DNA of 64,000 nt, from positions 248,001-312,000 of the forward strand of contig NZ_PVTF01000011.1 of the NCBI RefSeq assembly GCF_003002815.1, read 5' to 3'. Positions 2,727 through 62,507 of this stretch are shown here, in pieces. The notes beneath the pieces were generated by a model. That model was not told the origin of the DNA. It worked only from the letters and a program-made list of their open reading frames with translations, and did not search any database. The translations under genes and the position numbers were made by a program. Source of the stretch: Umezawaea tangerina. Lineage in GTDB: Bacteria > Actinomycetota > Actinomycetes > Mycobacteriales > Pseudonocardiaceae. Position 1 is the stretch's first letter. Each line of letters begins with the position of its first letter.

Positions 2727-2765
2727 GGCCGGGGCCGGGCACGGTGGTCGTGTCAGGCCCCGGCC
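2727..2765. terminator. Bidirectional hairpin between convergent genes
   Basis: GGCCGGGGCC (2727-2736) pairs with GGCCCCGGCC (2756-2765), a 10-bp GC stem with a 19-nt loop. It sits at the 3' ends of the M24-fold gene and the oppositely oriented hydroxylase gene and slightly overlaps the latter. No T-tract is present, as is common in actinomycetes. Confidence 0.6.
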
Positions 2766-4333
2766 GGTGCGGGAGCGGCGAACGACAGCGTGGCGGCGAG
2801 GCCGTCCGGCGGGTGGCCGGGGTGCCACGCCGCGGCGACGAAGCGGTCCGGGCGCACCAGGACGAGGTGCCCGGCGTACGGCGCGGTCTCGGCGTCCAGA
2901 CCACCGTCCACGTCGACGATCGCTCGACCGGTCGCGAACCGGTCGTCCACCGCCACCTGGACGACCGCGGTGACGGGGGAGCCGACCACCGCGGCCGCGG
3001 CGGCGAGGTCGTCGGCGCCCACCCCGACCCCGAGCAGCGCCCACCCGTGGCCGAGCACGTCGTCGAGGAGGCGGACCGCGCCGGTCGCGGTGTCGAACAC
3101 CCTCGGCTGGCCGAGCATGACGCCGACCTCGGCCGAGGCACCCGCCACGACCATGCCGTCGCGGTAGCGGTGCTCGGGCCGGTAGCGCATCTCCTCGTAG
3201 AACGCGCGGGTGCCGGGGTCCCGCAGCGCGGCGGCGAAGTGGGCGTCCCGGCGGCGCGCCAGCCGGGGGTCGGTGGTCATGACGATCCGCCCGAGGCGTT
3301 CGGACAGCCGGACCGTCGCCTCGGCGTGCGGACGGCGTTCGGACTCGTAGCTGTCGAGTGCCCACTCGGCGAGCCCGCCCGCCAGCACGTCGGCGATCTT
3401 CCAGCAGAGGTTGGCGGCGTCGCGGATGCCGGAGTTGAGGCCCTGCCCCGCGAACGGCGGCATCATGTGCGCCGCGTCGCCGAGCAGGAAGACCGGCCCG
3501 ACCCGCCAGCGGTCGGCCACCAGGGCGTGGAAGCGGTAGACCACGGCGCGCTCGACCTGGGCGGGCTCGACCCGCCGGTGGGGCGCGAGCAGGCGTTCGA
3601 CCACCTCGAACGGGACCTCGTCGCCGGGCGTCCCCTCACCGTCGTGCAGGAGGAACTCGTAGCGGCACCGGCCGTCCCGTCCCGGCACGATCACGTGCGG
3701 TCGCGCCGGGTCGGCGTGGTGCATGCCGTAGCGCTCGTCGTGGTGGTCGCCGACGACGTCGACCACGAGCCACGACTCCGCGTGGCTGCGCCCGGACATC
3801 CCCACGCCGAGGGCGGTGCGGACGCCGGACCGGCCACCGTCGCAGCCCAGCGCGTACCGGGCGCGCACGGTGGTGGCTCGCCCGTGCTCGCGGAAGGCCA
3901 CCTCGACCCCGTCCGCGTCGCGGAGCAGCCCGGTCACCTCGGCGCCCATCCGCACCTCGACCCGCGGATGGGACAGGAGGTGCCGGTGCAGCGCGCGTTC
4001 CAGGTCCGGCTGCGCGAACGGGTTCTTGAACGGGTGGCCGTGCCGGAACGGCCGGGGCGCGCGCACCTGCACCACCGCGCGGCCGTCGCGGTCGTAGTAG
4101 CGGGTGCCGATGCCGGGCACGATGATCCCGAGCACCCGGTCGACCACCCCGGCCGCCTGGAAGGCGCGCAGCGACTCGTCGTCGAGGCTGATCGCCTTCG
4201 GCTCGTCGCTGGTGGTCGCGTTGCGCTCCAGCACCAGGACCTCCACGCCACGTGCCGCCAGCAGCGCCGCCGCGGTCAGGCCCACCGGGCCCGCACCCAC
4301 CACCACGACACGGGTCGTCGGGTCGTTCGACAT
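2753..4333 (-). CDS. FAD-dependent aromatic hydroxylase (MhpA/PheA-like)
   Basis: This is a 526-residue group A flavin monooxygenase. It has an N-terminal Rossmann FAD motif VVVVGAGPVGLTAAALLAARG, DG-type motif residues in YALGCDGGRSGVRTALG, and the GD motif GDAAHMMPPFAGQGLNSG. The C-terminal thioredoxin-like extension is typical of 3-(3-hydroxyphenyl)propionate and phenol hydroxylases. It would use NAD(P)H and O2 to hydroxylate a phenolic ring before ring cleavage. The ATG at 4333 was preferred over upstream in-frame starts because the FAD motif follows within ten residues and GAGGGGGA lies just upstream. It diverges from the hydrolase operon across a shared operator region. The exact substrate cannot be read from the sequence. 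Confidence 0.88.
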   Translation of the reverse strand: MSNDPTTRVVVVGAGPVGLTAAALLAARGVEVLVLERNATTSDEPKAISLDDESLRAFQAAGVVDRVLGIIVPGIGTRYYDRDGRAVVQVRAPRPFRHGHPFKNPFAQPDLERALHRHLLSHPRVEVRMGAEVTGLLRDADGVEVAFREHGRATTVRARYALGCDGGRSGVRTALGVGMSGRSHAESWLVVDVVGDHHDERYGMHHADPARPHVIVPGRDGRCRYEFLLHDGEGTPGDEVPFEVVERLLAPHRRVEPAQVERAVVYRFHALVADRWRVGPVFLLGDAAHMMPPFAGQGLNSGIRDAANLCWKIADVLAGGLAEWALDSYESERRPHAEATVRLSERLGRIVMTTDPRLARRRDAHFAAALRDPGTRAFYEEMRYRPEHRYRDGMVVAGASAEVGVMLGQPRVFDTATGAVRLLDDVLGHGWALLGVGVGADDLAAAAAVVGSPVTAVVQVAVDDRFATGRAIVDVDGGLDAETAPYAGHLVLVRPDRFVAAAWHPGHPPDGLAATLSFAAPAPAGA

Positions 4334-4410
4334 GGGTCCCCCTCGTGGCTGTCGCGCGGCAGGTGTCGTGCTCGCGAGTGGGCGGCACTGCCTCCGCAAC
4401 CACAGCCTAC

Positions 4411-4449
4411 CTACTGACTAACAGGACACAAGACCTGCAATGTGGGACA
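4411..4449. promoter_or_regulatory. Candidate IclR operator in the divergent hydroxylase/hydrolase promoter
   Basis: CTACTGACTAACAGGAC (4411-4427) matches 13 of 17 positions of the perfect palindrome at 8672-8688. AACAGGAC is followed after exactly 16 nt by GGGACA (4444-4449), the same spacing as at 8681-8710. It lies between the divergent starts at 4333 (minus) and 4536 (plus). Confidence 0.55.
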
Positions 4450-4535
4450 TGTGCTATCTTCGGTCGCATGATCCACGTGTCCACCCGACCGGCTCCCGGT
4501 GTCGACCGGGGCCCGCGGTCGGCAGGAGGTCGGCC

Positions 4536-5270
4536 ATGACGGCCCAGCCGGACGACATCGGAACGGAATGGGGCGAGGTCCCGACCGAGGACGGCCCGAT
4601 GGGCCTCTACCGCGCGGGCGGTGACGCCACCTCGGCCGTCGTCGTCCTCCAGGAGGCGTTCGGGGTGAACGACCACATCCAGGACGTCACCCGCCGGTTC
4701 GCCGCCCTCGGCCACCTCGCCGTGGCGCCGGACCTGTTCCACCGCACCGGTACCGGCGTCCTCGGCTACGAGCGGCACGCCGAGGCCATGCCGCTGATCG
4801 GGGCGATCGACGCCGGGGCGATCACCCGCGACGTGCGGGCGGTCTTGGCGCACCTCGCCGAGCACGACGGCGTCCCGGCGAACCGGGTCGCCGTCGTGGG
4901 CTTCTGCTTCGGCGGCCGGGCCGCCTTCACCGCGGCGACGTCGATCCGGGGACTCGGGGCCACCGTCGTCTTCTACGGCCCCGGTATCGCCGCGGGCCCG
5001 CACGCCGTGCTCGGCGACGCGGGCCGGATCGACGCCCCGCTGCTGGTGCACGTCGGGGGTGACGACCCGACGATCCCGGCCGACCAGGTCGCGGCGGTCG
5101 ACACCGCGCTCGCCGCGCTCCCGGTGCCCGCCCGGCAGTTCGTCTACCCCGACGCGGGACACGCCTTCGCCTGCGACGCGCGGCCTGCCCTGTACCGCCG
5201 GGAGGCCGCCACCCTCGCCTGGGACCGCACCACCGCGTTCCTGGCCGACCACCTGCCCCTCGCCCACTGA
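4536..5270 (+). CDS. Dienelactone hydrolase-family protein
   Basis: This is a 244-residue alpha/beta hydrolase of the dienelactone hydrolase (carboxymethylenebutenolidase) family. The nucleophile is the Cys of GFCFGG, the acid is in GGDDPTIP, and the His is in DAGHAF, giving the usual Cys-Asp-His triad. The family hydrolyses lactones or related esters formed after aromatic ring cleavage. The ATG at 4536 is preceded by AGGAGG at 4524-4529, which decides this start over an upstream in-frame one. It is the first of three closely spaced genes with the bicupin (23 nt downstream) and the alcohol dehydrogenase. Confidence 0.88.
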   Translation: MTAQPDDIGTEWGEVPTEDGPMGLYRAGGDATSAVVVLQEAFGVNDHIQDVTRRFAALGHLAVAPDLFHRTGTGVLGYERHAEAMPLIGAIDAGAITRDVRAVLAHLAEHDGVPANRVAVVGFCFGGRAAFTAATSIRGLGATVVFYGPGIAAGPHAVLGDAGRIDAPLLVHVGGDDPTIPADQVAAVDTALAALPVPARQFVYPDAGHAFACDARPALYRREAATLAWDRTTAFLADHLPLAH

Positions 5271-5293
5271 CCGGACGATCCGGAGGAGCGACG

Positions 5294-6292
5294 ATGCCCA
5301 CCGTCACCGAACACCTCGTGCTGTTCGGCGCGGACGAGCCCCTGCGCGTGCTCGACCGCGACGAGCACCTGCTGCTGGCCGAACCGCGACCGCACCCCCT
5401 GATCCCGATCGCGCTGTGGAGGGAGCACGCGCCGCTGGAGGTCGTCCACCACCCCGTGGAGTTCCGCGCGCAGCCGTTCGCCCCGCCCCGCGGGGTCTAC
5501 GAGAACGACAAGCTGCGGGTCGAGTGGCAGACGATGGACAACCGCCAGCCCTTCTACCACCGCAACTGCGACGTCGACGAGATCTCCTACCAGATCGACG
5601 GGGAACGCACGCTCATGACCGAGCTCGGGGTGGTCGAGCACCGGCCGGGCGAGTTCTCCCGGCTGCCCCGCGGCGTCGCGCACGACAACCGGGGCCGCCA
5701 GGAGTCGCACCTGCTGTTCTACACACCGGCTCCGGTCGCCGAGGAGTGCGCCGCGGTGCGGGAGTCCGAGCCCGTCATGCCGCCCTTCCCCGGCTGGGAG
5801 GCGGGCCCCGCGAACGAGGCGGTCACCCAGTGCCTCGGCGCGCCGGGGCACGACGTCGCCGTCTTCCCCGTCGACGAGCGGCGGCTGCTCGACCAGGTGC
5901 ACCAGGAGAAGGAGCGGCTGCGGGTGCTGCGCGGCGCCGGGACCGGCACGACCTGGCTCTACCGCAACGACCACATCCGGATCGGGATGGCCGCGACACC
6001 GCCCTCGACGGGACGCACCTACGTGCGCACGCTCGACGCCGACGAGGTGCAGTACCAGGTGAGCGGCACCCGCACGGTCGTGACCCAGCGCGGGATCGTC
6101 GAGCTGCGGCCGGGCGACTTCCTGCTCGTCCCGCTCGGTGTCGCCCACACCTCCGTCGCGCACGAGCAGGGCGAGCACGTCCGCGTGCTGTGCGACCGCG
6201 AGCTGCCCCGGATCGGCGAGGTCGACCGGGTCGCGGTGCCGTACGCGCCCGAGCTGCTGGCCGCCGTCCGGCGCGCCGGGGCCGCGTCGTGA
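5294..6292 (+). CDS. Bicupin protein, putative ring-cleavage dioxygenase
   Basis: This 332-residue protein has two cupin-like halves and resembles gentisate/homogentisate-type dioxygenases in architecture. The first half keeps likely iron ligands (FYHRN, DEISYQ, GVAHDN), with HRPGEF and PRGVAHD as the cupin 2 motif. The second half (about residues 205-310) repeats the pattern as DADEVQYQ and RPGDFLLVPLGVAHTS but lacks the first His. AGGAGCGACG precedes the ATG. Its stop overlaps the next start (GTGA), so translation is coupled to the dehydrogenase. Family assignment is good, but dioxygenase activity and substrate are inferred from the neighbouring hydroxylase and hydrolases. Confidence 0.7.
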   Translation: MPTVTEHLVLFGADEPLRVLDRDEHLLLAEPRPHPLIPIALWREHAPLEVVHHPVEFRAQPFAPPRGVYENDKLRVEWQTMDNRQPFYHRNCDVDEISYQIDGERTLMTELGVVEHRPGEFSRLPRGVAHDNRGRQESHLLFYTPAPVAEECAAVRESEPVMPPFPGWEAGPANEAVTQCLGAPGHDVAVFPVDERRLLDQVHQEKERLRVLRGAGTGTTWLYRNDHIRIGMAATPPSTGRTYVRTLDADEVQYQVSGTRTVVTQRGIVELRPGDFLLVPLGVAHTSVAHEQGEHVRVLCDRELPRIGEVDRVAVPYAPELLAAVRRAGAAS

Positions 6293-7422
6293 CCGGCACC
6301 GGCAGGACCATGCTGGCCGCCCGCGTGGAGGCGGGCTCGACCACCGTCGCCCTCGTCCGCGTCCCGGTCCCCGAGGTCGGGCCGCAGGACGTGCTGGTGC
6401 GCGTCGTCTCCGCGGGTGTCGCCCCCGGCATCCTGCGACTGCTCGCGAGCGGCGGGTTCCCGAACCTGCCCACCACGATCGGCCACGAGGCGGCGGGCAC
6501 CGTCGAGGCCGTCGGCCCGGCGGTGTCCGGCATCGTCCCCGGTACCAGGGTGAGGGTGCACCCCAACCTCACCTGCCTGCGGTGCGCCTACTGCACGTCG
6601 GACCGCGAGATGATGTGCGAGCAGAACGCCATGATCGGGCACGCCGCGTTCGGCACGGGCGCGAAACCGCTCTACGACGCCTACCACGACGGCGGGCTCG
6701 CCGAGTTCGTCCGAGTCCCGCACTGGCTGGTCGACCCGCTGCCCGACCGCGTCGGCTTCGAGGTCGGCGCCAAGGTGCACGACCTCGCCAACGCCGTGCG
6801 CGCGTTGAAGTGCGCCGACCTGCGCGACGGGGCCGCGGTGGTCGTCACCGCGGCGACCGGGGCGATGGGGACGGCGACCGTGGCACTCGCGGCGCGGTTC
6901 GGGGTGGCGCGGCTGGTGCTCGTCGGCCGGGACGCGAAACGGCTGGCGGCGGTCCGCGAACTGGCGGGCGACCTGCCCACCGACACCGTCGCGACCGACG
7001 ACCTCCCGCCCGACTGGGCCGCGAACGGCGGCCTCACGACCGTGCTGCGCGGGCTGCTGCCCGGCGGAGCCGACGCCGTGCTCGACTACGCGCCCGAAGG
7101 CGTGCTCGGCACGCAGGCGCTCCACTCGATGGCGACCGGTGCCACGTTCGTCCACATGGGAGGCAACTTCACCGGCGAGCTGGTCCCGATGGCGGTCATG
7201 ATGGTCCGGTGCTGGCGGCTGGTCGGCACCCGCGCCAACACCAGGGCCGACGTCCGCGACGTGCTCTGCCTCATCGGCGACGGCTCCGTCGACGCCGACC
7301 GCCTGATCACCCACCGCTACCCGCTCGACGACATCGGCACCGCCCTCGCCGAGATGCAGGCCCGAGAGGAACCGATCTGGATGGCCGTGGTCACCCCGCC
7401 GCAGTCGGACACCGCCCTGTAG
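6289..7422 (+). CDS. Zinc-type alcohol dehydrogenase (MDR family)
   Basis: This is a 377-residue medium-chain dehydrogenase. GHEAAGTVEAVGPAVSGIVPG is the catalytic-domain signature, CLRCAYCTSDREMMC is a structural-zinc cysteine cluster, and the cofactor site is read around VVVTAATGAMGTATVAL. It should oxidise an alcohol or reduce an aldehyde generated in the same pathway. The GTG start at 6289 overlaps the bicupin stop by 4 bp and has no separate strong ribosome-binding site, which supports coupling. A strong hairpin follows the stop. An open frame runs in phase well upstream (from about 5059), but that part is antisense-like shadow of the hydrolase and bicupin genes. Confidence 0.88.
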   Translation: MTGTGRTMLAARVEAGSTTVALVRVPVPEVGPQDVLVRVVSAGVAPGILRLLASGGFPNLPTTIGHEAAGTVEAVGPAVSGIVPGTRVRVHPNLTCLRCAYCTSDREMMCEQNAMIGHAAFGTGAKPLYDAYHDGGLAEFVRVPHWLVDPLPDRVGFEVGAKVHDLANAVRALKCADLRDGAAVVVTAATGAMGTATVALAARFGVARLVLVGRDAKRLAAVRELAGDLPTDTVATDDLPPDWAANGGLTTVLRGLLPGGADAVLDYAPEGVLGTQALHSMATGATFVHMGGNFTGELVPMAVMMVRCWRLVGTRANTRADVRDVLCLIGDGSVDADRLITHRYPLDDIGTALAEMQAREEPIWMAVVTPPQSDTAL

Positions 7423-7459: not shown

Positions 7460-8167
7460 TCAGGGGATCCGGCGCACGAGGTAGCGCCAGCCGGCTTCGA
7501 GCTGGTGCGGTGGCCAGCACTCCTCGGCCTTGCGGCGCGTCTCGTCCTCGTCGGGCAGCGCGCGGGGTGATCCGGCGGCCATGGCGACCAGCTGGTCGCG
7601 GCACGCGCGGTCCAGGAGCACGGCGTGCATCACGGCCGCGCCGACGGTCGGGCCGGTGGTGACGATGCCGTGGGCGGGCAGCAGGGCGGCGGGTGCGCTT
7701 CCCAGTGCCGCGGCCAAGGCAGCGCCCAGTTCGGGTGTGCGGACCAGGCCGGTGGTCGCCTGGAAGCGGGGGAGGCCGCGGGCCGCGAAGAGGGCGCCCG
7801 CGTGCGACAGCGGGAGCAGGGCGGTATCCAGGGAGGCGAACGTCGTCGCGCCCGCCGAGTGGGTGTGCACCGAGCACACGAGCGAAGCGTCGGCGCGCAG
7901 GACCTCGAGGTGGATGGAGCACTCCACGTGCGGGGTGCCCTCGCCCTCCAGCACCCCGCCGTCGAACGAGACGAGCTGGAGCCGGGGGCCGGTCACCTCC
8001 GCGAGACCCCAGCCGGGCTGCTTGATCCAGACGCCCCGGCCGTCGGGGTCGCGCACGGCGACGTGGCCCCAGACCATGTCCTCCTGCCCGGCGGCGGCCA
8101 GGGCGTGGGACGCGGAGATCGTCAGGGCGCGCGCTTCCTCCGACGTCGTGGGGACGCTGGGCTTCAC
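7460..8167 (-). CDS. Class II aldolase/adducin-family protein
   Basis: The 235-residue protein has the class II (zinc) aldolase fold used for fuculose/ribulose phosphate aldolases and some decarboxylases. The metal-binding histidines appear in SVHTHSAG and LLPAHGIVTTG, and a candidate catalytic Glu in HVECSIHLEV. Its GTG start at 8167 overlaps the upstream VOC stop by 4 bp (GTGA), so the two are translationally coupled. In this setting a retro-aldol or decarboxylation step on a ring-cleavage product is plausible, but no substrate can be assigned. Confidence 0.85.
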   Translation of the reverse strand: MKPSVPTTSEEARALTISASHALAAAGQEDMVWGHVAVRDPDGRGVWIKQPGWGLAEVTGPRLQLVSFDGGVLEGEGTPHVECSIHLEVLRADASLVCSVHTHSAGATTFASLDTALLPLSHAGALFAARGLPRFQATTGLVRTPELGAALAAALGSAPAALLPAHGIVTTGPTVGAAVMHAVLLDRACRDQLVAMAAGSPRALPDEDETRRKAEECWPPHQLEAGWRYLVRRIP

Positions 8168-8658
8168 TGGACGGGCAGGTAGGCGGGACCGGCCTCGGCG
8201 AGCAGCCGTTCGGCCTCGGCGTGGATGGCCTCCGGGGACTGCCCGAGGTCGATCGTCTTGCGGAAGGGCTGCCGGACGTCGCGCTCCAGGCGCAGGTAGA
8301 CCTCGTTGCGGTTGCCCTCGGGGTCGAAGAAGTAGATGCCGAACGCGTTGCCGTGCGTGACCTCCTGCTGCACCTCGACCCCCTCGGCCGCGAACAGGTG
8401 GTGGTAGCGGATGAGGTCCTCCAGCTCCTCGACGCGCCACGAGACCTGGTGCTGGAGCTTCGCGCCCGGCACGGCGGTGCGGCCGGTCTGCAGCACGAAC
8501 TCGTGGTGCTCGGTCTCGGGGTGCGAGCTGAGGAACACGATGCCCAGCTCGGCGTCCTCGTCGGTGACGGTCAACCCGATCACGCGCTCGTAGAAGTCGC
8601 GCATCCTGGCGAGGTCGAAGACCCACAGTCCCGTGTGCCCCAGCTGCGAGATCGCCAT
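8164..8658 (-). CDS. VOC-family extradiol-type dioxygenase
   Basis: This is a 164-residue single-module vicinal oxygen chelate protein. It keeps the usual 2-His-1-carboxylate ligands of extradiol enzymes: His in LGHTGL, His in QHQVSW, and Glu in NEVYLR. Such proteins are Fe(II) or Mn(II) catechol-cleaving dioxygenases or related isomerases. It is the first gene of a divergent pair facing the FAH-family gene and is followed by the overlapping class II aldolase. Two-module catechol 2,3-dioxygenases are about twice this length, so it could be a small extradiol enzyme or a VOC lyase/isomerase. Confidence 0.8.
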   Translation of the reverse strand: MAISQLGHTGLWVFDLARMRDFYERVIGLTVTDEDAELGIVFLSSHPETEHHEFVLQTGRTAVPGAKLQHQVSWRVEELEDLIRYHHLFAAEGVEVQQEVTHGNAFGIYFFDPEGNRNEVYLRLERDVRQPFRKTIDLGQSPEAIHAEAERLLAEAGPAYLPVQ

Positions 8659-8671
8659 CTTGACCTCCTGA

Positions 8672-8710
8672 GTCCTGTTTAACAGGACGTGTGGACTGTT
8701 TTATGGGACA
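8672..8710. promoter_or_regulatory. Perfect 17-bp palindrome, candidate IclR operator
   Basis: GTCCTGTTTAACAGGAC (8672-8688) is a perfect inverted repeat with 8-bp arms around one central base. AACAGGAC is followed after 16 nt by GGGACA (8705-8710), identical in spacing to the site at 4420-4449. It lies between the VOC start (8658, minus) and the FAH-family start (8761, plus), so one bound regulator could control both. Confidence 0.65.
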
Positions 8711-8760
8711 ACGATACGATTCGGGTCCGGTCGCGTCAACATCGAGGGAGGGCGACGACC

Positions 8761-9603
8761 ATGCGCCTGGCCACACTGCGCCACCACGGGCGGACCCGCG
8801 CCGCACGGCGCGACGGCGACTCCTACGTGCTGTTCCCGCACAGCGACGTCGGGACGCTGCTCGGGGACCCGGACTGGCGTGTGCGCGCCGCCACGGGCGG
8901 GGGTGCGACGGTGCCGGTGTCCGAAGTGGACTACGCGCCCCTGGTCCCGCACCCCAACAAGATCGTCTGCCTGGGCCTGAACTACGCGAGCCACATCGCG
9001 GAGATGGGGCGCGACGTGCCCGCCTACCCCACGCTGTTCGCCAAGTACGACGGGGCCCTGATCGGCGCGCGCGACGACGTCGTGCTGCCCGCTGTCAGCG
9101 ACCGCGTCGACTGGGAGGCCGAGCTCGGCTTCGTCGTGGGCCGAACGGCCCGGCACGTCCCGCGCGACGAGGCCATGGACCACGTCGCCGGCTACACCGT
9201 CGTCAACGACGTGACCGCGCGCGACTGGCAACGGCGCACCAGGGAGTTCCTGTCCGGCAAGACCTTCGAGTCGACGACACCCGTCGGGCCGGAGCTCGTC
9301 ACCCCCGACGAGCTGGGCGACCCCGGCGCGACACCCGACCTGGAGATCCGGTGCGAGGTCGACGGCGAGGTGATGCAGCGCTCGCGCACCTCGGACCTGC
9401 TCTTCGGGATCGCCGAGATCCTGTCCTACGTCAGCGACATCATCACCCTGCACCCCGGCGACCTCATCGCCACCGGCACGCCCGGCGGTGTCGGCGACGG
9501 CCGCGACCCGAAGCTCTACCTCGGGCCCGGCCAGGTGCTGCGCACCGTCGTCGAGGGCCTGGGCGAGCTCCGCAACACCTGCGTCGCCGAGAAGAGCGCT
9601 TGA
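8761..9603 (+). CDS. Fumarylacetoacetate hydrolase-family protein
   Basis: The 280-residue protein has the FAH fold. Metal-binding acidic residues lie in WEAELGFVVG and YTVVNDVTARDWQ, and the family signatures KTFESTTPVGPELVT and GDLIATGTPGGVG are present. Members hydrolyse acylpyruvates or hydrate and decarboxylate ring-cleavage products, for example fumarylpyruvate in the gentisate route. The ATG at 8761 has AGGGAGGG about ten bases upstream. It diverges from the VOC/aldolase pair across the palindrome. The gene most probably carries out a late step of the island's pathway. Confidence 0.9.
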   Translation: MRLATLRHHGRTRAARRDGDSYVLFPHSDVGTLLGDPDWRVRAATGGGATVPVSEVDYAPLVPHPNKIVCLGLNYASHIAEMGRDVPAYPTLFAKYDGALIGARDDVVLPAVSDRVDWEAELGFVVGRTARHVPRDEAMDHVAGYTVVNDVTARDWQRRTREFLSGKTFESTTPVGPELVTPDELGDPGATPDLEIRCEVDGEVMQRSRTSDLLFGIAEILSYVSDIITLHPGDLIATGTPGGVGDGRDPKLYLGPGQVLRTVVEGLGELRNTCVAEKSA

Positions 9604-9611
9604 GTCCGGGC

Positions 9612-10232
9612 CTACCCGGTGAGCTGGGCGAGGTTGCGCACTAGGGTGTCGAGGAGCTTGTCGTCGGCGGGCCAGGGGAAGTCGTGCAGGGTCGACCGGG
9701 TGCCGACGTAGCCGTGCAGGGCGAGCCAGAGCGCGGTGGCGTCGACCTCGGGGTCCTGGCTGCGGGAGCGGCCCGCGCTCACGCAGTCGCGGATGCCGTC
9801 GAGCAGGAACGCGAACGCGTCGGCCCCGGTCATCGTCTCCATGTCCTTGTCCAGCTGCTCGCGCCGGTCGGCCGGGGGGACGGTGAACAGCACGCGGTAC
9901 TGGTGGGGCTGCTGGAGGCCGAAGTCCACGTAGGCGCGGATCGCCGAGTGCAGGCGGTCGACCGGGTCGGTGATGCCGTCGACGGCGTGGCGGATGTGGG
10001 TGGTCAACGCGTGGAAGGTGTTGTCCACCACGGCTTGCAGGACGTCGTTGAGGTCGGCGAAGTGGGCGTAGATCGACGGGGCGGTGATGCCCGCCGTCCT
10101 GGCCACGGCGCGCAGGGTGACACCCGCGCCGCCCGACTCCTCCAGCAGGCGGGCTGCCGCGCGGACGATCTCCTCGCGCAGGTGACCGCCTTGACCTCGG
10201 GGGTTGGGGGCGCGGCGCGCTGCTTGCGGCAC
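9612..10232 (-). CDS. TetR-family regulator with WHG-type C-terminal domain
   Basis: This 206-residue regulator has a TetR helix-turn-helix (VTLRAVARTAGITAPSIYAH, about residues 35-65) and a C-terminal domain with LWLALHGYV, characteristic of the TetR WHG subgroup. The GTG at 10232 with GAGGAGT just upstream was chosen over an in-frame upstream start. It is divergent from the uncharacterised gene at 10398. The same pair recurs at 58400-59644, and both intergenic regions carry TTACAGTCGTTT-like motifs, the likely operators. Confidence 0.88.
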   Translation of the reverse strand: MPQAARRAPNPRGQGGHLREEIVRAAARLLEESGGAGVTLRAVARTAGITAPSIYAHFADLNDVLQAVVDNTFHALTTHIRHAVDGITDPVDRLHSAIRAYVDFGLQQPHQYRVLFTVPPADRREQLDKDMETMTGADAFAFLLDGIRDCVSAGRSRSQDPEVDATALWLALHGYVGTRSTLHDFPWPADDKLLDTLVRNLAQLTG

Positions 10233-10284
10233 GGGACTCCTCTTCGCTGTCGACGCGGGTCGGGGTCCGAGCCTAGCAGATGGC

Positions 10285-10332
10285 AAAACGCCTGTAATCA
10301 TGGATCACGAAAATTAGGGTTTACAGTCGTTT
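10285..10332. promoter_or_regulatory. Inverted pair of TTACAGnCGTTT motifs, candidate TetR operator
   Basis: TTACAGGCGTTT occurs on the minus strand at 10286-10297 and TTACAGTCGTTT on the plus strand at 10321-10332, differing at one base. They lie between the divergent TetR and uncharacterised genes. Related motifs occur in the equivalent position of the paralogous module at 59045-59089. Confidence 0.5.
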
Positions 10333-10397
10333 AGCGTTGACGTACGTTCCTCCTCGGGGAAACGGCCGTTTCCCGCTGATCAGGTGAGGAGATCGTC

Positions 10398-10889
10398 GTG
10401 AGGTACGTGGCGCAAGCGGTCCTGGACGCCCCGGTGGAGCGCGTGGACCTGGCGGAATGGCTTTTCACCCTGACCGACGCCGAGTACCGGGCGGCCGCGC
10501 GGGGCCACCACGCGGCGGGTGTGAGCGTCGACGACCGGGGGCGCGGGACGGTCAACGTCGAGTCGGTGGGCGGGAACCTGCTCGTCCAGCACTACCGGGC
10601 CGAACGCGCGGACCCCGCGTTCGTGGAGATGTACTCGGCCACCACCCGCGCCTACCTCTACCACCTGGTCCCGTTGACGTGCCGGGTCAGGTGGATCCTG
10701 GAGGCCGAGGCCGGGGACGAGAGGTCGTCGGTGTTCTCGTGCACGGTGGACGTCGACCTCCCGCTGCCGCTGCGCGTGCTGGCACGGGTGACCGCGATGC
10801 CGTTCTTCCTGCGCAGGCACCTGGTCGAGGAGACCGCCGGTTTCGCCGCGGACATCAACCGCAAGCTCGCGCTCGCCCGCGCGGCGTGA
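10398..10889 (+). CDS. Uncharacterised protein, paralogue of 59141-59644
   Basis: The 163-residue product is not recognised with confidence. It shares conserved blocks with the product at 59141, including AVLDAP, RVDL-EWLF, LTDAEY, RGTVNVE and VQHY, so both belong to one family. There is no signal peptide, and a mildly hydrophobic stretch near residues 125-145 is present. The charge and aromatic pattern could fit an SRPBCC-like or small lipid-binding fold, but this is a guess. GTG at 10398 has GTGAGGAG six bases upstream. Control by the divergent TetR is likely. Confidence 0.75.
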   Translation: MRYVAQAVLDAPVERVDLAEWLFTLTDAEYRAAARGHHAAGVSVDDRGRGTVNVESVGGNLLVQHYRAERADPAFVEMYSATTRAYLYHLVPLTCRVRWILEAEAGDERSSVFSCTVDVDLPLPLRVLARVTAMPFFLRRHLVEETAGFAADINRKLALARAA

Positions 10890-10914: not shown

Positions 10915-11379
10915 TCAGGGTGCGCCGGTGGCCGGGTGCTCCGGCAGCGCCCTGGTGTAGACGTCGGCGACACCGCGCAGGAACGAGGAGATCTTCTCCC
11001 TGGTGTCGGCGTCCGCGGCACCCAGCAGTCCGTCGAGGCCCTCGATGACCGGCGCCACGTACCGGTTCGCGAGCGCCTCGGTGCCGGGGTCGACGGCGAT
11101 CACCATCTTCCGCCGGTCCGAGTCGTGCTTCGCGCGCCGGATGTGCCCGCCCGCCTCCAGTCGCTTGAGCACCTGGGCGGTGGCCGCGGTCGACAGGCCC
11201 GCGGCCCTGGCGAGGTCGGTCGGCGTGCTCGGGCCGCGGGCGATGAGGTGGTAGACGACCTCCAGGCCCGTGCGGTCGATCCCCAGCGCCGTCGCCATGG
11301 AGCGTTCGAACCACTGCTGGCGCACCGCCATGACCTGGAGCAGATCCCGCAGGTGGGGGACCGGGGAGTCCGTCGTCAC
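10915..11379 (-). CDS. MarR-family regulator
   Basis: The protein has about 154 residues and a winged-helix DNA-binding domain (STPTDLARAAGLSTAATAQV, then the wing with KHDSDRRKMVIAV), typical of MarR repressors of oxidative-stress or phenolic-compound genes. The frame stays open to 11502, but the divergent promoter and palindrome lie there, so a start at GTG 11379 or 11382, preceded by AAGGGGTGGG, is preferred. It most likely represses the divergent flavin monooxygenase at 11532 and itself, with an aromatic ligand relieving repression. Confidence 0.82.
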   Translation of the reverse strand: MTTDSPVPHLRDLLQVMAVRQQWFERSMATALGIDRTGLEVVYHLIARGPSTPTDLARAAGLSTAATAQVLKRLEAGGHIRRAKHDSDRRKMVIAVDPGTEALANRYVAPVIEGLDGLLGAADADTREKISSFLRGVADVYTRALPEHPATGAP

Positions 11380-11496
11380 CACCCACCCCTTCGTCCGGTC
11401 CTCCGTGGACGGATCGGCGCGACCCGTCTCGGCCGCCGATGGTCTCACGACCCGGCGGACCGCGCGGCGCCGTCCAGGTACTAGGACATCATACTG

Positions 11497-11532
11497 TTGC
11501 ACCAGTTGCTAACTGAGTTTACTATCTCGAGG
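11497..11532 (+). promoter_or_regulatory. Leaderless promoter with MarR-type palindrome in its spacer
   Basis: TTGCAC (11497-11502) and TACTAT (11520-11525) form a -35/-10 pair with a 17-bp spacer. Transcription starting about seven bases after the -10 would begin at 11532, the G of the monooxygenase GTG, so the mRNA would be leaderless. CAGTTGCTAACTG (11503-11515), with 5-bp inverted arms, sits entirely in the spacer and is a likely MarR site. Confidence 0.6.
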
Positions 11533-12743
11533 TGACCTCCTCCCGAACCGCTCTGATCGCCGGCGCGAGCATCGCCGGTCCGGCCCTGGCCCACTGGCTC
11601 TCCCGCTACGGCTGGGACGTCACGGTCGTCGAACGGGCGCCCGCACCGCGCACGGCCGGGCAGAACATCGACGTGCGCGGTGTCGGCGCCACCGTGCTGG
11701 AGCGGATGGGCATCCGCGACGCCGTGGCGGCCCGGCGCACCGGCGAGCTCGGAGCCTCCTTCATCGGACCCGACGGCAAGGTTGCCGGCGTCTTCCCCGC
11801 GGGTGCCAGCGGCGTCGACGGCGCCACCGCCGAGCTGGAGATCCTGCGCGGCGACCTGTCCGACCTCCTGGTGGAGGCGACCGCGGGCGAGGTCGAGTAC
11901 GTCTACGGCGACCACGTCACCGAGGTCGAGGACACCGCGGACGGGGTGCGGGTCCACCTGCGCTCGGGCGCTGTCCACGACGTGGACGTGGTCGTCGCCG
12001 CCGACGGCCTGAACTCCACCACCCGCGAGGTGTTCGGCTTCCGGGTGCCCGTCCACCACATCGGACTGGAGTCGACGTACTTCACGATCGACCGCGCGCC
12101 CGAGGACGACGACTACTGGCGGTGGTACAACCCCGGTCGCGGTCGTTCGGTGCAGCTGCGCCCCGATCCCTACGGCGGGATCCGCGCCGTCCTGTCCCAG
12201 CTGGTGTCGCCTGCCTGGGCCGCGGGCTCCGTCCGGCGGACCCGTGCGGAACAGGTCAAGCACCTGCGCGGGGCGTTCGCCGACGCCGGGTGGCACACCG
12301 ACCGGGTCCTGGACGGCCTGGTGACCGCCGACGACCTGTACTACGAGCACCTCGGACAGGTCAAAGCGCCGCAGTGGTTCCACGGCAGGACGGTGCTGGC
12401 GGGGGACGCGGCCCACTGCGCGTCCCCGTTGAGCGGCATGGGCACCACCCTGGCCCTCACCGGCGCCTACGTCCTGGCGGGTGAGCTGGCCCGCCACGAC
12501 GACCACACCGACGCTTTCTTCGAGTACGAGCGGATCATGCGGCCGTTCGTGGCGCGCGCCCAGAAGCTGCCCCCGTTCGGCCCGCGACTGGCCACTCCGG
12601 TCTCCAGGTTCGGGGTGGCCGCCTTCGCCGCGGTCGTCAAGGTGGTGTCCAGTCCGCCGCTGCGCCGCCTCGGGGACAAGGTGGCCTCGCGTCCCGCCGA
12701 CGCCGTCGACCTGCCGGACTACCGAGCCCTCGTCCGCCTCTGA
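11532..12743 (+). CDS. FAD-dependent monooxygenase (PHBH/TetX-like)
   Basis: This is a 403-residue group A flavin monooxygenase. The FAD-binding motif ALIAGASIAGPALAHWL is at the N-terminus, the DG motif is VVAADGLNS, and the GD motif is LAGDAAHCASPLSGMGTT. It would hydroxylate or inactivate a small aromatic compound using NAD(P)H and O2. GTG at 11532 has no spaced ribosome-binding site, consistent with the leaderless promoter. It pairs with the divergent MarR gene and is followed 34 nt later by a small membrane protein gene. Confidence 0.85.
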   Translation: MTSSRTALIAGASIAGPALAHWLSRYGWDVTVVERAPAPRTAGQNIDVRGVGATVLERMGIRDAVAARRTGELGASFIGPDGKVAGVFPAGASGVDGATAELEILRGDLSDLLVEATAGEVEYVYGDHVTEVEDTADGVRVHLRSGAVHDVDVVVAADGLNSTTREVFGFRVPVHHIGLESTYFTIDRAPEDDDYWRWYNPGRGRSVQLRPDPYGGIRAVLSQLVSPAWAAGSVRRTRAEQVKHLRGAFADAGWHTDRVLDGLVTADDLYYEHLGQVKAPQWFHGRTVLAGDAAHCASPLSGMGTTLALTGAYVLAGELARHDDHTDAFFEYERIMRPFVARAQKLPPFGPRLATPVSRFGVAAFAAVVKVVSSPPLRRLGDKVASRPADAVDLPDYRALVRL

Positions 12744-58399: not shown

Positions 58400-59035
58400 T
58401 CACGGGGTGAGGAGGGCGAGGCGGTCGGCGTACTGGTCGAGCACGCTGTCGCGTGACGGCCACGGGAAGTCGGCAGTGGAGTGCGGCAGGGTGACGTAGC
58501 CGTGCAGCGCGGTCCACAGCAGGGTCGCGTCGCGCGTGGGATCGGTGCTGGTCGACCTGTCCGCCTCGACGCAGGCGGCGACGGTCCGGACGAGCAGGTC
58601 GAAGGCGTGGGCGCCGGGCATGGTGGCGACCGACTTCGGCGGCAGCGGTCCGGCCTCCGGCTGTCGGAGGAGGAACACCTTGTCCTGGGTGAACATCAGG
58701 CCGTAGAGCCGGGGGTTGGCCACGGCGAAGGCGGCGTACGCCCGGCACAGCGCGCGCAGGCGTGCGGCCGGGTCGTCGTTCCCGGTGCGCGCCTCATCGA
58801 GGGTCGAGTGCAGCCGTTCGAAGGCCCGGTCGACCACGGCGGTCAGGACGGCGCCGAGGTTGGCGAAGTGCGGGTAGATCGAGGGTGCGGTGATCCCGGC
58901 CTCGCGCGCCACTCCCCGCAGGGTGATGCCGGACGGGTCGGGAGTGGCCTCCACGAGGCGGAGGGCGGCGTCGACGACCTCCTCGCGCAGACCGCCGCCC
59001 GCCCCTCGGGGATTGGGTTTGCGAGTGCGTTCCAC
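58400..59035 (-). CDS. TetR-family WHG regulator, paralogue of 9612-10232
   Basis: The 211-residue regulator has helix-turn-helix ITLRGVAREAGITAPSIYPH and the WHG-type block LLWTALHGYV near residue 185. It parallels the TetR at 9612 along its whole length (PNPRG, LREE-V, AREAGITAPSIY, ALHGYV, DFPWP). GTG 59035 was taken as start. It diverges from a paralogue of the uncharacterised gene that the other TetR faces, so a two-gene module was duplicated. Ligand unknown. Confidence 0.9.
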   Translation of the reverse strand: MERTRKPNPRGAGGGLREEVVDAALRLVEATPDPSGITLRGVAREAGITAPSIYPHFANLGAVLTAVVDRAFERLHSTLDEARTGNDDPAARLRALCRAYAAFAVANPRLYGLMFTQDKVFLLRQPEAGPLPPKSVATMPGAHAFDLLVRTVAACVEADRSTSTDPTRDATLLWTALHGYVTLPHSTADFPWPSRDSVLDQYADRLALLTP

Positions 59036-59044
59036 GGCATCACT

Positions 59045-59089
59045 TTACAACTGTTTGTCTTGCCGCTACTGTTCGCCTAACGGTCGTTT
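59045..59089. promoter_or_regulatory. TTACAGTCGTTT-like motifs of the second TetR module
   Basis: TTACAACTGTTT (59045-59056) and TAACGGTCGTTT (59078-59089) match 9 and 10 of 12 positions of the TTACAGTCGTTT motif found in the first module at 10321-10332. They occupy the divergent region between the TetR gene and its target. Confidence 0.45.
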
Positions 59090-59140
59090 AGTGATGCTCT
59101 TCGCGACAACGACCTCCACTCGACCGGAAGGGTGAAAGAC

Positions 59141-59644
59141 ATGAAGCACACCGGAACCGCGGTCCTCGACGCACCTGCCGACCGCGTGGACCTGGAGGAA
59201 TGGCTCTTCGGGCTCACCGACGCGGAGTACCAGGCCTGCGCGCGGGGGCACCGCGCCGCGGGGACGTTCGTCCAGGACGGCGTCCGCGGCACGGTCAACG
59301 TCGAGGCCATCGGCGGACACCTCATCGTCCAGCACTACCAGGAGGTCTCGGCGGAGCCGTCCCGCGTGGAGATGCTGTCCAGGCGCAGCCGGGTGTACCT
59401 GTTCCACCTCGTCCCGGCGACCATCCAGGTCCGCTGGACGATGTCGGCGACCGCCCGCGACGCGGAGACCTCCGAGTTCCGCTGCACCGTCGAGCTGACC
59501 ATGAACCCGCTGCTGCGCGTGCTCGGCGCCCTGTCCCTGCTCGGTCCGGCCATCCGCTCCCACACGGTGGAGGAGACGAGGCTCTTCGGCGACGACATCG
59601 TCCGGAAGATCGGGACCGGCCGCGGCACACCGGTGGGCGAGTAA
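59141..59644 (+). CDS. Uncharacterised protein, paralogue of 10398-10889
   Basis: The 167-residue product shares aligned blocks with that at 10398: TAVLDAP, RVDL-EWLFGLTDAEY, RGTVNVEAIGG and VQHYQE. It has no signal peptide and no recognised domain. ATG 59141, preceded by GGAAGGG, is preferred over GTG 59132 because the ribosome-binding site would be too close to the latter and because the alignment with the paralogue starts there. Another uncharacterised gene follows 35 nt later, which the first module lacks. Confidence 0.75.
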   Translation: MKHTGTAVLDAPADRVDLEEWLFGLTDAEYQACARGHRAAGTFVQDGVRGTVNVEAIGGHLIVQHYQEVSAEPSRVEMLSRRSRVYLFHLVPATIQVRWTMSATARDAETSEFRCTVELTMNPLLRVLGALSLLGPAIRSHTVEETRLFGDDIVRKIGTGRGTPVGE

Positions 59645-59679: not shown

Positions 59680-60585
59680 GTGTTGCTGGTCGACTCGCCG
59701 GAGCGCACCCGGTGGAGCGGAACCCCGCGCACGCGGGACGGGGGTCGGGCCGGTTCCGCGGCGGCGGCCGTCGTGGCGGCCGTCCGCGACGACCCGGCGG
59801 CTCGGCTGGCACTGGCCGCCCGCTTCTACGACGGCACCGCGGGCATCCGGCCGTACCGGCGGGCGGAGCTGGCGTTCATGCGGTGGCAGATCCGCCGCGG
59901 TGTCCTCGGCCCGCCCGGCGCGGGTGGCAGCCCGTGGTGGCGGGCGGTCAACGAGGAGCTGCTGCGCGACACGGTGGAGGCGGAGCTCCGGCTGCGCGGG
60001 GACGACCGGTCCGCCCCTTCCACGCGGGTGGACCGGTGGATGCGCTTCCTGCGCGACCCCTCCGTGCGGACCTGGTACCGGGCCCACAACTCCAGCATCG
60101 TCGCGGGGTACCTCGCCCACCGCGGCCTGGCCGACCTGGAGAACACCGCCGAGCGGTTCTTCATGAACGCCGCGCTGCTGCGGGTCCTCTACGCCGACTG
60201 CCTGGTGTCCGACCCCGGCCTCGCCCTGGGCCGCTTCGCCCCGGTGGGTCGCCTGCTCGGGGACCCGCGCCGCCGTGCGACCGACGTGTTCCTGTCCCTG
60301 CGCAACATCCTGCCCGCGCGGTACCCGCTCGACGACGTCGGGCTCGGCGACCTGCTGGACGCCGAGAACCACCTGGGCCACCTGCTCGACTACGGCGTGA
60401 TCCTGCCCCGTGCCGCCGGGCTGTACGAGCACGCCGCGCGCGACCTCGACGAACCGGCACTGCTCGACCTGGTCCACGACGGCCGCCCCGCGTACGCGTG
60501 GTCGCGGGAGGACGACGAGGTCTGGCGCGGCCGTCGGGCTCCTCGGACGCGGCACCTGCTGGAGGCCGCGACCCGTCCCCGCTGA
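59680..60585 (+). CDS. Uncharacterised 301-residue protein
   Basis: The protein is rich in Arg and helical segments, with no signal peptide or clear membrane span. Notable stretches are AELAFMRWQIRRGVL, STRVDRWMRFLRDPSVRTWY and DTVEAELRLRGDD. No catalytic motif is recognised. The spacing of Arg, His and Trp residues could hint at a helical oxygenase of the MpaB type, but the diagnostic motifs are not evident. GTG 59680 follows AAGGGGGCGGG. It is probably co-transcribed with the upstream uncharacterised gene under TetR control. Confidence 0.7.
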   Translation: MLLVDSPERTRWSGTPRTRDGGRAGSAAAAVVAAVRDDPAARLALAARFYDGTAGIRPYRRAELAFMRWQIRRGVLGPPGAGGSPWWRAVNEELLRDTVEAELRLRGDDRSAPSTRVDRWMRFLRDPSVRTWYRAHNSSIVAGYLAHRGLADLENTAERFFMNAALLRVLYADCLVSDPGLALGRFAPVGRLLGDPRRRATDVFLSLRNILPARYPLDDVGLGDLLDAENHLGHLLDYGVILPRAAGLYEHAARDLDEPALLDLVHDGRPAYAWSREDDEVWRGRRAPRTRHLLEAATRPR

Positions 60586-60592
60586 CCGGGGC

Positions 60593-61162
60593 TCAGCGGC
60601 GCCGCTTCGGGAGGTGGCCCGCGCGCTGGGCCAGGCCGTCCATGATCAGCGCCAGTCCCGCCTCGAACGCCGCCGTCCGGTCGAGGCCGGGGCCCTCCGC
60701 GTCGTCACCAGCCTCCGCCTGCTCCTCCAGCACGCTGCCGACGGTGAAGTGGCTCGTGGTGAGCATCGCGATCCGCGCGTCCTGCTCGGGCAGCCCCGCG
60801 GAGACCAGGAACTCCAGCTTGTGCAGCGCGCGTGAGAGGTCCACGCCCTGCGGTGTGGTCCCGGCGTGCAGCCGCGCGCCGTCGCGGTGCGCCAGCAGCG
60901 CCCGCCGGAAGCTGCGCGAGTTCTCCACGAGCCAGTCGCGCCAGTCGTCCGAGGGCGCGGGCAGGGGAGTCGTCGCGTGGCCCGCGACGGCGGCCTCGGC
61001 CATCGCGTCGAGCAGCGAGGCCTTGTTGCGGAAGTGCCAGTAGAGCGAAGGCTGTTCCACGCCAAGGCGTTTGGCCAGCTGCCGGGTGCTCACCGCGTCG
61101 AGCCCCAGCTCGTCGAGGAGGGTGAGCGCCTCGCTCACGATGGTCTCGCGGTCCAACTTCAT
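60593..61162 (-). CDS. Tetracycline-class TetR repressor
   Basis: This 189-residue repressor closely resembles classical TetR at its N-terminus: LDRETIVSEALTLLDELGLD and RQLAKRLGVEQPSLYWHFRN (the LGVEQPTLYWHVKN region in TetR). The C-terminal helical domain is of the TetR_C type. ATG 61162 was chosen over the overlapping GTG 61165. It is divergent from a TetX-like flavoenzyme across three CCTATCAxTGATAGG sites, nearly the known tetO core. A tetracycline or related polyketide is the natural guess for the ligand. Confidence 0.92.
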   Translation of the reverse strand: MKLDRETIVSEALTLLDELGLDAVSTRQLAKRLGVEQPSLYWHFRNKASLLDAMAEAAVAGHATTPLPAPSDDWRDWLVENSRSFRRALLAHRDGARLHAGTTPQGVDLSRALHKLEFLVSAGLPEQDARIAMLTTSHFTVGSVLEEQAEAGDDAEGPGLDRTAAFEAGLALIMDGLAQRAGHLPKRRR

Positions 61163-61173
61163 CACCCCGACAG

Positions 61174-61246
61174 CCTATCAGCGATAGGCCTTGACGACCT
61201 ATCAGTGATAGGCGATGCTGGGCGCCAGTTGCCTATCACTGAAAGG
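61174..61246. promoter_or_regulatory. Three tetO-like operators and promoter
   Basis: CCTATCAGCGATAGG (61174-61188), CCTATCAGTGATAGG (61198-61212) and CCTATCACTGAAAGG (61232-61246) match the tet operator core CTATCAGTGATAG. TTGACG (61191-61196) and GATGCT (61214-61219), 17 bp apart, form a plausible promoter for the flavoenzyme with the second operator filling the spacer. The third operator overlaps the ribosome-binding site region of the flavoenzyme gene. Confidence 0.85.
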
Positions 61247-61253
61247 GGCGCAC

Positions 61254-62507
61254 ATGGACGCGACATCCGGGCCTTCGCTGAAGGTCCTCGTCTGCGGTGG
61301 CGGTATCGCCGGTCAGGCCGCGGCCTACTGGCTCGTGCGGGGTGGCCACGAGGTCGTGGTGGTGGAGCGCTTCCCCGTGCTGCGCGCCACCGGCGCGCAG
61401 ATCGACCTGCGCGGGCAGGGGATCGAGGCGGTCGAGCGCATGGGGCTGCTCGACGCCGTGCGCGACAAGCTCGTGCACGAGCCGGGCGTGGCCTTCGTGG
61501 ACGAGCGGGGCAGGCGCTGGGGTGCGGTCATGGCCAACACGTCGGGGAAGGGGCGCCAGACCATGACGTCCGAGTACGAGATCATGCGCGGCGACCTGGT
61601 GCGCATCCTCCACGACGCCACGAAGGACGACGCGCGGTACGTCTTCGGCACCGGCGTCGAGAGCTTCGAGCAGAACGCGGACCGCGTCCTCGCGCACTTC
61701 TCCGACGGGACCACCGACGAGTTCGACGTCCTGATCGGAGCCGACGGACAGGGTTCGCGCGTCCGGCGGGACCTCCTGCCCGTAGGCACCGACCCGTACT
61801 GGCCGGTGGGGATCCACATGGCCTACTGGTTCATCCCGCGCGACGAGACCGACGACGCCCTCAGGGAGACCTACAACGCCCCCGGCGGCCGCATGATCAT
61901 GCGGCGCAGCCACAACCCCACCGAGACCCAGGTCTACTTCGCGCTGTGGGAGCGGTCCGAGGAGGCCACGGCGATCCACCGCCGGCCGGTCGACCGGCAG
62001 AAGCGGTTCTGGGCCGACCGGTTCCGCGACGCCGGGTGGCAGACCGGGCGGTTCCTCGCGGGCATGGAGACGGCCGAGTTCTTCTACTCCCAGGAGGTCG
62101 CGCAGGTCCGGATCCCGACCTGGTCCGACGGGCGGGTCGCGCTCGTCGGCGACGCGGGCTACTGCCCGTCGCCCTACAGCGGCATGGGGACCTCCGCCGG
62201 ACTGGTCGGCGCCTACGTCCTGGCGGGCGAGCTCAACCGCAACCCCGGCGACATCCCGACGGCGTTCGCCGACTACCAGACCGCGCTCCAGCCCTTCGTC
62301 GACACCGTGCAGGCCGAGGTCAACCCGAAGGTCCTGCGACTCGGGTTCCCGCAGGGCAGGTTCGGGATCAACGCCCTGCGCACCATGGGCGCGGTGGGCA
62401 CGTTCCTCAAGCTCCCCGAGCTCGCCGCCCGGTTCGCGAAGGAGGACCGCGGCGGTGCCTGGCCACTGCCGGACTACGCCGAGCTGCGAGCCGGTCGGGT
62501 CGGGTAG
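61254..62507 (+). CDS. TetX-like FAD-dependent monooxygenase
   Basis: The 417-residue group A flavoenzyme has FAD motif VLVCGGGIAGQAAAYWLVRGG, RATGAQIDLRGQGIE, DG motif VLIGADGQGSRVRRDL, and GD motif ALVGDAGYCPSPYSGMGTSA. It belongs to the TetX/PHBH-like group, whose members hydroxylate aromatic polyketides or inactivate tetracyclines. ATG 61254 follows AAAGGGG. Its divergent classical TetR and tetO-like sites make a tetracycline-type substrate or inducer likely, but homologues also act on other aromatics, so activity must be shown. Confidence 0.88.
   Translation: MDATSGPSLKVLVCGGGIAGQAAAYWLVRGGHEVVVVERFPVLRATGAQIDLRGQGIEAVERMGLLDAVRDKLVHEPGVAFVDERGRRWGAVMANTSGKGRQTMTSEYEIMRGDLVRILHDATKDDARYVFGTGVESFEQNADRVLAHFSDGTTDEFDVLIGADGQGSRVRRDLLPVGTDPYWPVGIHMAYWFIPRDETDDALRETYNAPGGRMIMRRSHNPTETQVYFALWERSEEATAIHRRPVDRQKRFWADRFRDAGWQTGRFLAGMETAEFFYSQEVAQVRIPTWSDGRVALVGDAGYCPSPYSGMGTSAGLVGAYVLAGELNRNPGDIPTAFADYQTALQPFVDTVQAEVNPKVLRLGFPQGRFGINALRTMGAVGTFLKLPELAARFAKEDRGGAWPLPDYAELRAGRVG

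Follow-up and report, generated by a model that had tools for sequence, protein, structure and literature searches.

The window, a stretch of 64,000 nucleotides from Umezawaea tangerina, contains two paralogous pairs of divergent genes, and in each pair a TetR-family regulator (T1, T2) faces a gene for a small protein of one and the same family (U1, U2). Both shared promoters carry operator-like sites of one pattern, and U is probably regulated by its TetR. The predicted fold of U and four of its conserved residues suggest a minimal, PhlG-like metal-dependent C-C hydrolase; this assignment is tentative, and we rate its probability slightly below even.

In the first unit, T1 (9612..10301, minus strand) is divergent from U1 (10398..10889, plus strand), which encodes a START-fold protein of 163 aa; in the second unit, T2 (58400..59035, minus strand) is divergent from U2 (59132..59644, plus strand), which encodes a START-fold protein of 170 aa. 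All four are open reading frames. The first-pass annotation of this DNA had described the pairs at 9612-10889 and 58400-59644 as paralogous at both genes, and this was borne out: the identity between U1 and U2 is 53% over 162 aa (E 9e-60), and that between T1 and T2 is 49% over 206 aa (E 8e-58). Both regulators passed the cut-off of 26.8 bits for the C-terminal domain TetR_C_33 (PF13305), with 49.1 and 63.0 bits; we take this domain to be the "WHG" domain of the annotation. For TetR_N, T1 was above the cut-off (40.1) and T2 slightly under it (22.0 versus 24). In genome-wide searches, T1 was the best match of T2 and T2 the best match of T1 (170 bits in both directions), and the runner-up reached 130 bits from T2 and 144.5 bits from T1. 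The whole 10.7-Mb genome contains two U copies at E 10 or better. The real start of T1 is probably codon 24, a GTG at 10232, because the ATG at 10301 is not conserved in the orthologue of another Umezawaea genome (G002) and would place one operator-like site within the gene.

The claim that the two divergent promoters have motifs in common also held, with a pattern, WWACRNNYGTTT, that is larger than the one first given. All of its six matches in the window (at five places, one being a palindrome that is read on both strands; 0.06 expected) were found in the two divergent promoters; because the pattern was drawn by eye from these promoters and those of orthologues, the match counts for the window and the orthologues are partly circular, and tests on other promoters weigh more. 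In the first unit, the operator-like sites TTACAGGCGTTT (10286..10297, minus strand) and TTACAGTCGTTT (10321..10332, plus strand) are kept in G002, the latter as TTACAGCTGTTT. They are accompanied by a perfect palindrome, GGGAAACGGCCGTTTCCC (10357..10374), which holds the operator-like site AAACGGCCGTTT on both strands (10360-10371) and is conserved in G002 as AAACGGTTGTTT. In the second unit, the sites TTACAACTGTTT (59045..59056) and TAACGGTCGTTT (59078..59089), both on the plus strand, lie 33 bp apart, and the spacing is equal in Nonomuraea and Umezawaea endophytica, so that each of the three U2-type promoters with a T2 gene shows it. The exact matches in the stretches fetched from the other strains were all located between T and U, namely two in Nonomuraea (10 kb), three in U. 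endophytica (19.5 kb), and four in G002 (19.5 kb); of these last four, one falls within T1 if the extended frame is taken and outside it if T1 begins at the downstream GTG. The operator-like sites are thus conserved together with the divergent layout in four strains.

The whole genome contained 18 matches to the pattern, compared with six for a reversed control pattern. Two of the 12 matches outside the window lie 59 bp apart between a TetR_C_33 regulator on contig C7 and a divergent gene of the RPE65/carotenoid-oxygenase family (L164, G000:C7:408000-416500, 2765-4875), where the start codons are uncertain. As these sites are outside the source of the pattern, they are less circular evidence than the matches in the window and the orthologues. 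The helix of the C7 regulator, GITAPSLY, is close to GITAPSIY of T1 and T2. On contig C2, two TetR_C_33 regulators with the helix GIAAPSIY flank a zinc-type dehydrogenase gene (L107, G000:C2:212500-222500, 4129-6568) without an exact site; one copy with a single mismatch (4828-4839) was found in the spacer beside one of these TetR genes, with 0.61 expected over the whole 10 kb. The correspondence between helix and motif is therefore not clean, since this copy adjoins a TetR with a differing helix.

The annotation had called the two units a duplicated module. The paralogy stands, but a recent local duplication of the T/U unit is not favoured, and two paralogous lineages in one genome is the better description: in each of two other Umezawaea genomes a single U copy was found, of the U2 type in U. 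endophytica and of the U1 type in G002. In a small FastTree tree, U1 and U2 did not form a sister pair, although two deep nodes were weak (0.17 and 0.55); U2 grouped with Nonomuraea (0.65), then with Kibdelosporangium (0.91), and then with U. endophytica (0.97), again with some weak deep nodes. The TetR tree joined T1 and T2 (0.83). Local duplication is probably not the origin of the two units, and the grouping of U2 across genera suggests transfer. In the window, U2 is followed by a gene that we call X (59680..60585, plus strand), a second TetR gene (60593..61165, minus strand), and an FAD-dependent monooxygenase gene (61215..62507, plus strand). Nonomuraea glycinis keeps the block T2-U2-X-TetR-monooxygenase, with identities of 79, 89, 84, 68, and 66%, respectively. 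With this common order of X, TetR, and monooxygenase, the earlier statement that the second copy had gained gene X is not supported, and the U2-type cassette may have moved as one block. U. endophytica has retained T2, U2, monooxygenase, and TetR within 8.2 kb. In Kibdelosporangium, U, TetR, and monooxygenase are kept at 81, 80, and 83% identity, and no T2 was found within 10.5 kb. A further genome, G047 (L004, 743-1977), has a U2-like gene (71% identical) whose TetR_C_33 neighbour is not divergent but follows it on the same strand.

Searches of genome contigs yielded 163 relatives of U, the best 80 of which were analyzed. Judged by record titles, these 80 come from Actinomycetota, Pseudomonadota, Bacteroidota, Planctomycetota, Acidobacteriota, and others. 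The distribution is patchy, as U was found in three of 394 genomes of its own class and in five of 60 relatives, the own genome being counted in both. Divergent linkage to TetR_C_33 genes recurred outside the window in U. endophytica, G002, Nonomuraea, SAR86, and Halieaceae. In Halieaceae (L019), the TetR_C_33 regulator is directly divergent from U, while in SAR86 (L026) it diverges from a carotenoid-oxygenase-family gene that is followed by U; in the latter genome, the regulator, the carotenoid-oxygenase-family gene, U, and a VTT-domain gene stand in a row (2912-6112). A TetR-like gene was present in the fetched stretch at 14 of the 80 loci and on the divergent side within 2.4 kb at nine; among these nine, L027 and L029 passed the TetR_C_33 cut-off, L031 remained below it, and L010 has another TetR type. 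TetR linkage as a family-wide rule was rejected on these counts, and it is a minority arrangement in the U family. The conserved regulator-target pair that the annotation had postulated is thus backed by the shared operator-like sites and by divergent TetR_C_33 linkage elsewhere, but does not extend to the family in general. Among 26 of 28 divergent neighbours scanned (one 1126-aa protein and one repeat were excluded), six were LysR and four TetR regulators. Control by a ligand-sensing regulator therefore recurs at some loci, while its class varies and many loci show none. The same-strand neighbours, 68 of 88 of which were scanned, include alpha/beta hydrolases, carboxymuconolactone decarboxylases, zinc-type dehydrogenases, and carotenoid oxygenases, each at few loci.

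For the comparison of U sequences, an alignment of 74 rows was used, comprising 69 of the 80 loci (L037 twice), L004, L005, and the two window copies. Eight loci missed by the simple gene finder, L044 and L018 at contig ends, and L063 with two frames were left out. At L037 (4938-6264), from Acidobacteriales, two U-family members are adjacent and convergent. The annotation had regarded the partner protein as uncharacterised, and the family is indeed undescribed in Pfam and NCBIfam: the 74 members had no credible match, the best being a flagellar hook domain (E 0.00086; 8 of 74 at E 1), and the polyketide aromatase/cyclase families PF10604 and PF03364 were absent from the 18 families listed for the 74 members at E 1. 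The PDB contained no credible match by sequence (best E 0.39 in one search, none in another), and few and indirect literature queries retrieved no paper on the family. Of the 20 plasmid records listed (47 had a match), 12 label the U gene "hypothetical protein", and the others have no feature or no annotation there. The AlphaFold2 model of U2 (mean pLDDT 94.5) has the START/Bet v1 topology, with the beta-alpha-alpha-beta6-alpha helix-grip arrangement of START/SRPBCC proteins. In VIA-align comparisons, the best structural matches were tied, namely ZhuI (3tfz_B; Z 14.8, 152 aligned, rmsd 3.1), TTHA0849 (Z 14.7, 142 aligned, rmsd 2.9), and onion LFS (Z 14.1, 139 aligned, rmsd 2.9). PhlG was not among the 50 structural matches listed, an absence that excludes nothing.

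Seven residues are invariant in the 74 rows (W24, N56, E58, G61, Y69, S83, and W102; U2 numbering), and H40, Q67, H68, H144, and E148 are kept in 73 rows. H40, E58, H144, and E148, which correspond to H37, E55, H141, and E145 of U1, are all present in 73 of the 74 members and follow the fixed order H, E, HxxxE of the reported PhlG ligands. The exception, L057 (4977-5525), carries H40N, H144D, and E148Q and retains E58 as well as nine other conserved residues that were checked, which is expected if the residues form one site. L057 is possibly a non-catalytic binder. One of the 74 members touched the DAPG hydrolase family PF18089 at E 0.16, which is not significant, and there was no listed match for the other 73, so that by the Pfam cut-off the U family lies outside PF18089. 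This match led us to build a PhlG profile of 16 sequences, from which the truncated row L131 was excluded. The hhalign score of U versus PhlG was not significant (P 0.061 with three PhlG sequences, 0.097 with 16), 16 of 200 column shuffles scored as high as the real alignment, and the general START profile PF10604 outscored the PhlG profile against U (23.6 versus 17.8). The alignment itself, in contrast to its score, set the four ligand columns of PhlG, which are H, E, H, and E in 16 of 16 PhlG-family rows, on H40, E58, H144, and E148 of U2. This was observed in none of the 200 column shuffles, the best of which reached three of the four once, and it was repeated in 61 of 72 choices of reference sequence, which are not independent of each other. 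PF10604, used as a control, shared neither the two H columns nor the helix E. At the remaining E column, 15 of its 30 rows have E in the alignment to PhlG, so that the column equivalent to E58 is weak evidence by itself; in the alignment to U, the PF10604 residues there are mostly L or F. The metal ligands of PhlG are reportedly H129, E160, H270, and E274 (attributed to He et al. 2010), and these fit positions 137, 168, 278, and 282 of the 3hwp chain with a constant offset of 8, counted by hand. Because the residues were picked after the resemblance had been seen, the four-residue match is a strong lead and not proof.

The closest known system is that of PhlG (PF18089), the C-C hydrolase of 2,4-diacetylphloroglucinol (DAPG) in Pseudomonas, and its TetR repressor PhlH. 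The literature presents PhlG as a hydrolase that depends on zinc and has a Bet v1-like fold (PMC8003664), and the U2 model likewise has a Bet v1-like domain. The zinc-type H/E/H/E of PhlG are the residues at the aligned U positions. PhlH is described as a TetR regulator whose binding site is located between the phlH and phlG genes and which DAPG sets free (PMC8003664), and the two genes are given as oppositely transcribed (PMC11878095); U is also divergent from a TetR gene, with operator-like sites between them. In size the proteins differ: PhlG-type proteins have about 280-300 aa with an N-terminal extension, and U, with 163-170 aa, is more than 100 residues shorter than the PhlG chain of 302. 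Phloretin hydrolase from Mycobacterium abscessus (5xe5) has H, E, and HxxxE at the same positions as PhlG in the alignment, and it is a full-length PhlG-type protein of 280 aa, whereas U is without the N-terminal part. Another protein, Rv1775, was inferred to be a PhlG-like C-C hydrolase (PMC8562490). Bet v1-fold C-C hydrolases seem rare, as PhlG and phloretin hydrolase were the only solved structures to which a PhlG-family protein could be matched. If the assignment is true, U would represent a new enzyme family of little over half the size of PhlG and phloretin hydrolase, distributed over several phyla, without a name in Pfam or NCBIfam, and with a four-residue site that lends itself to testing.

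The mechanism that we propose takes the paralogy, the divergent layout, the conserved operator-like sites, the predicted fold, and the conserved residues with their PhlG-ligand alignment from the sequence, and from these we infer DNA binding, metal binding, hydrolysis, the substrate class, and co-function with the monooxygenase. Given that T and U have the same anatomy as phlH and phlG, the TetR would repress U until an aromatic substrate binds. Each unit would be a self-contained sense-and-degrade switch, in which the WHG-type TetR would bind the repeated operators in the shared promoter and repress both its own gene and the U gene opposite. The TetR would be freed, and U induced, by an aromatic ligand that is most likely the substrate of U itself. 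The enzyme would be a single-domain START/Bet v1-fold protein that holds a divalent metal, probably zinc, on H40, E58, H144, and E148. Like PhlG and phloretin hydrolase, it would hydrolyse a C-C bond beside a ketone (acyl-phenol or beta-diketone type). In the U2-type cassette, the neighbouring flavin monooxygenase, which has a tetracycline-repressor-like regulator of its own, may use the same polycyclic aromatic as U or a related one. As the TetR gene and the operator-like sites adjoin the U gene, use as a biosensor would be possible. A far-reaching version would have U found a new, widespread family of zinc C-C hydrolases of about 165 aa, single-domain proteins on the START fold, and would have TetR and U in actinobacteria act as a mobile detoxification switch that dismantles aromatic polyketides jointly with a tetracycline-destructase-like monooxygenase; we regard this version as quite unlikely.

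Three other explanations were considered. U might be a START enzyme or binder without metal, of the polyketide aromatase/cyclase kind, in which the polar residues line the pocket and the TetR senses the same polyketide. The aromatase/cyclases ZhuI (3tfz) and TcmN (2rer) indeed resemble the U2 model in overall fold, size, and topology and are among its best structural matches (Z 12.6 to 14.8), and the PF10604 profile is nearer to U than the PhlG profile. However, identities are 11-17% among the matches listed, and high Z values are common to many START folds in the structural list. Furthermore, at E 1 none of the 74 U members matched a polyketide-cyclase family of Pfam, and no PKS family was found in ten window genes or in the 25 of 80 same-strand neighbour families listed. 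The agreement in H and E at the four PhlG-ligand columns is more in keeping with a metal site, as is the joint loss of three of these residues in L057, and we consider the metal-free explanation somewhat unlikely.

The same residues would be accounted for equally if U were a metal-dependent START enzyme of other chemistry, such as a decarboxylase, a lyase, an isomerase, or an ester/lactone hydrolase, acting on a product of oxidation by the flavin monooxygenase. The hydrolases, decarboxylases, dehydrogenases, and carotenoid oxygenases among the same-strand neighbours would agree with this; yet the sole metal-START enzymes matched here are C-C hydrolases, which leaves another chemistry unlikely in our estimation. 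Lastly, TetR_C_33 regulators are numerous, and the pairing of T and U could be incidental, with U as a mere neighbour and the motif serving only self-repression of the TetR. The minority status of TetR linkage in the U family points in this direction, as do Kibdelosporangium and G047, which hold a U2-like gene without a divergent TetR of the T2 type. Nevertheless, the divergent order was retained in two of two U1-type genomes and in three of five U2-type genomes (G047 counted), T2 orthologues are 79% and U2 orthologues 82-89% identical, and the two sites are 33 bp apart in all three, so that an incidental pairing appears very unlikely. Regulation of a putative metal-dependent C-C hydrolase by its divergent TetR remains our preferred reading.

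The product of gene X has 301 aa, is predicted to be all-helical, and belongs to an actinobacterial family that has no Pfam match; the listed start of the gene (59680-60585) is an internal one within a longer open frame. A species-specific gain of X was rejected: although the other 59 of the 60 relatives lack the gene, 22 of 394 genomes of the class carry it (the own genome counted), and in Nonomuraea glycinis an orthologue occupies the equivalent position. At 19 other loci with X, 45 of 60 neighbouring genes were scanned and no recurrent partner was found (at most three per family). By sequence, X had no credible match in the PDB (best E 0.42). Its model (pLDDT 88.3) was matched by VIA-align to the platypus monotreme lactation protein (6b4m_B, Z 12.3; 4v00_A, Z 12.2; next match Z 3.3), with 210-213 residues aligned, an rmsd of 4.1-4.3, and 11-12% identity. 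With helical proteins, a Z value below about 13 may arise by chance, and neither the Foldseek list nor the sequence profile supported the likeness. The fold of the monotreme lactation protein was described as novel (PMC4834066).

The regulator and the monooxygenase downstream of X form a divergent pair (60593-62507) that resembles a tetracycline destructase/TetX-type monooxygenase and its TetR, but both proteins are under the curated cut-offs: the TetR_C_1-type regulator reached 214.7 bits with the NCBIfam tetracycline-repressor model (cut-off 265), and the monooxygenase, with 212.9 bits for NF033476 (cut-off 550), falls outside the tetracycline destructases. Near U1, a MarR-family regulator (10915..11502, minus strand), whose membership in the unit is uncertain, is divergent from a second FAD-dependent monooxygenase (FAD_binding_3; 11532..12743, plus strand), which is 37% identical to the one at 61215-62507. 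In a search from the 61215 gene, the 11532 gene was the best by 1.6 bits of 29 matches (self included; one search direction). A fixed linkage of both units to an FAD monooxygenase was half supported, as it is not kept for the U1 type in G002, where no such gene was found within 19.5 kb. With a flavin monooxygenase as neighbour, the degradation of aromatic polyketides, tetracycline-like or other, becomes something that can be assayed concretely. The gene context of U1 and U2 fits aromatic breakdown, with the flavin monooxygenase and the tetracycline-repressor-like regulator near U2, and a flavin monooxygenase together with class II aldolase, VOC/dioxygenase-type, and fumarylacetoacetate-hydrolase-type proteins near U1. 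The latter three lie beside the first pair (7460-9603), and this group looks like an aromatic-degradation cluster.
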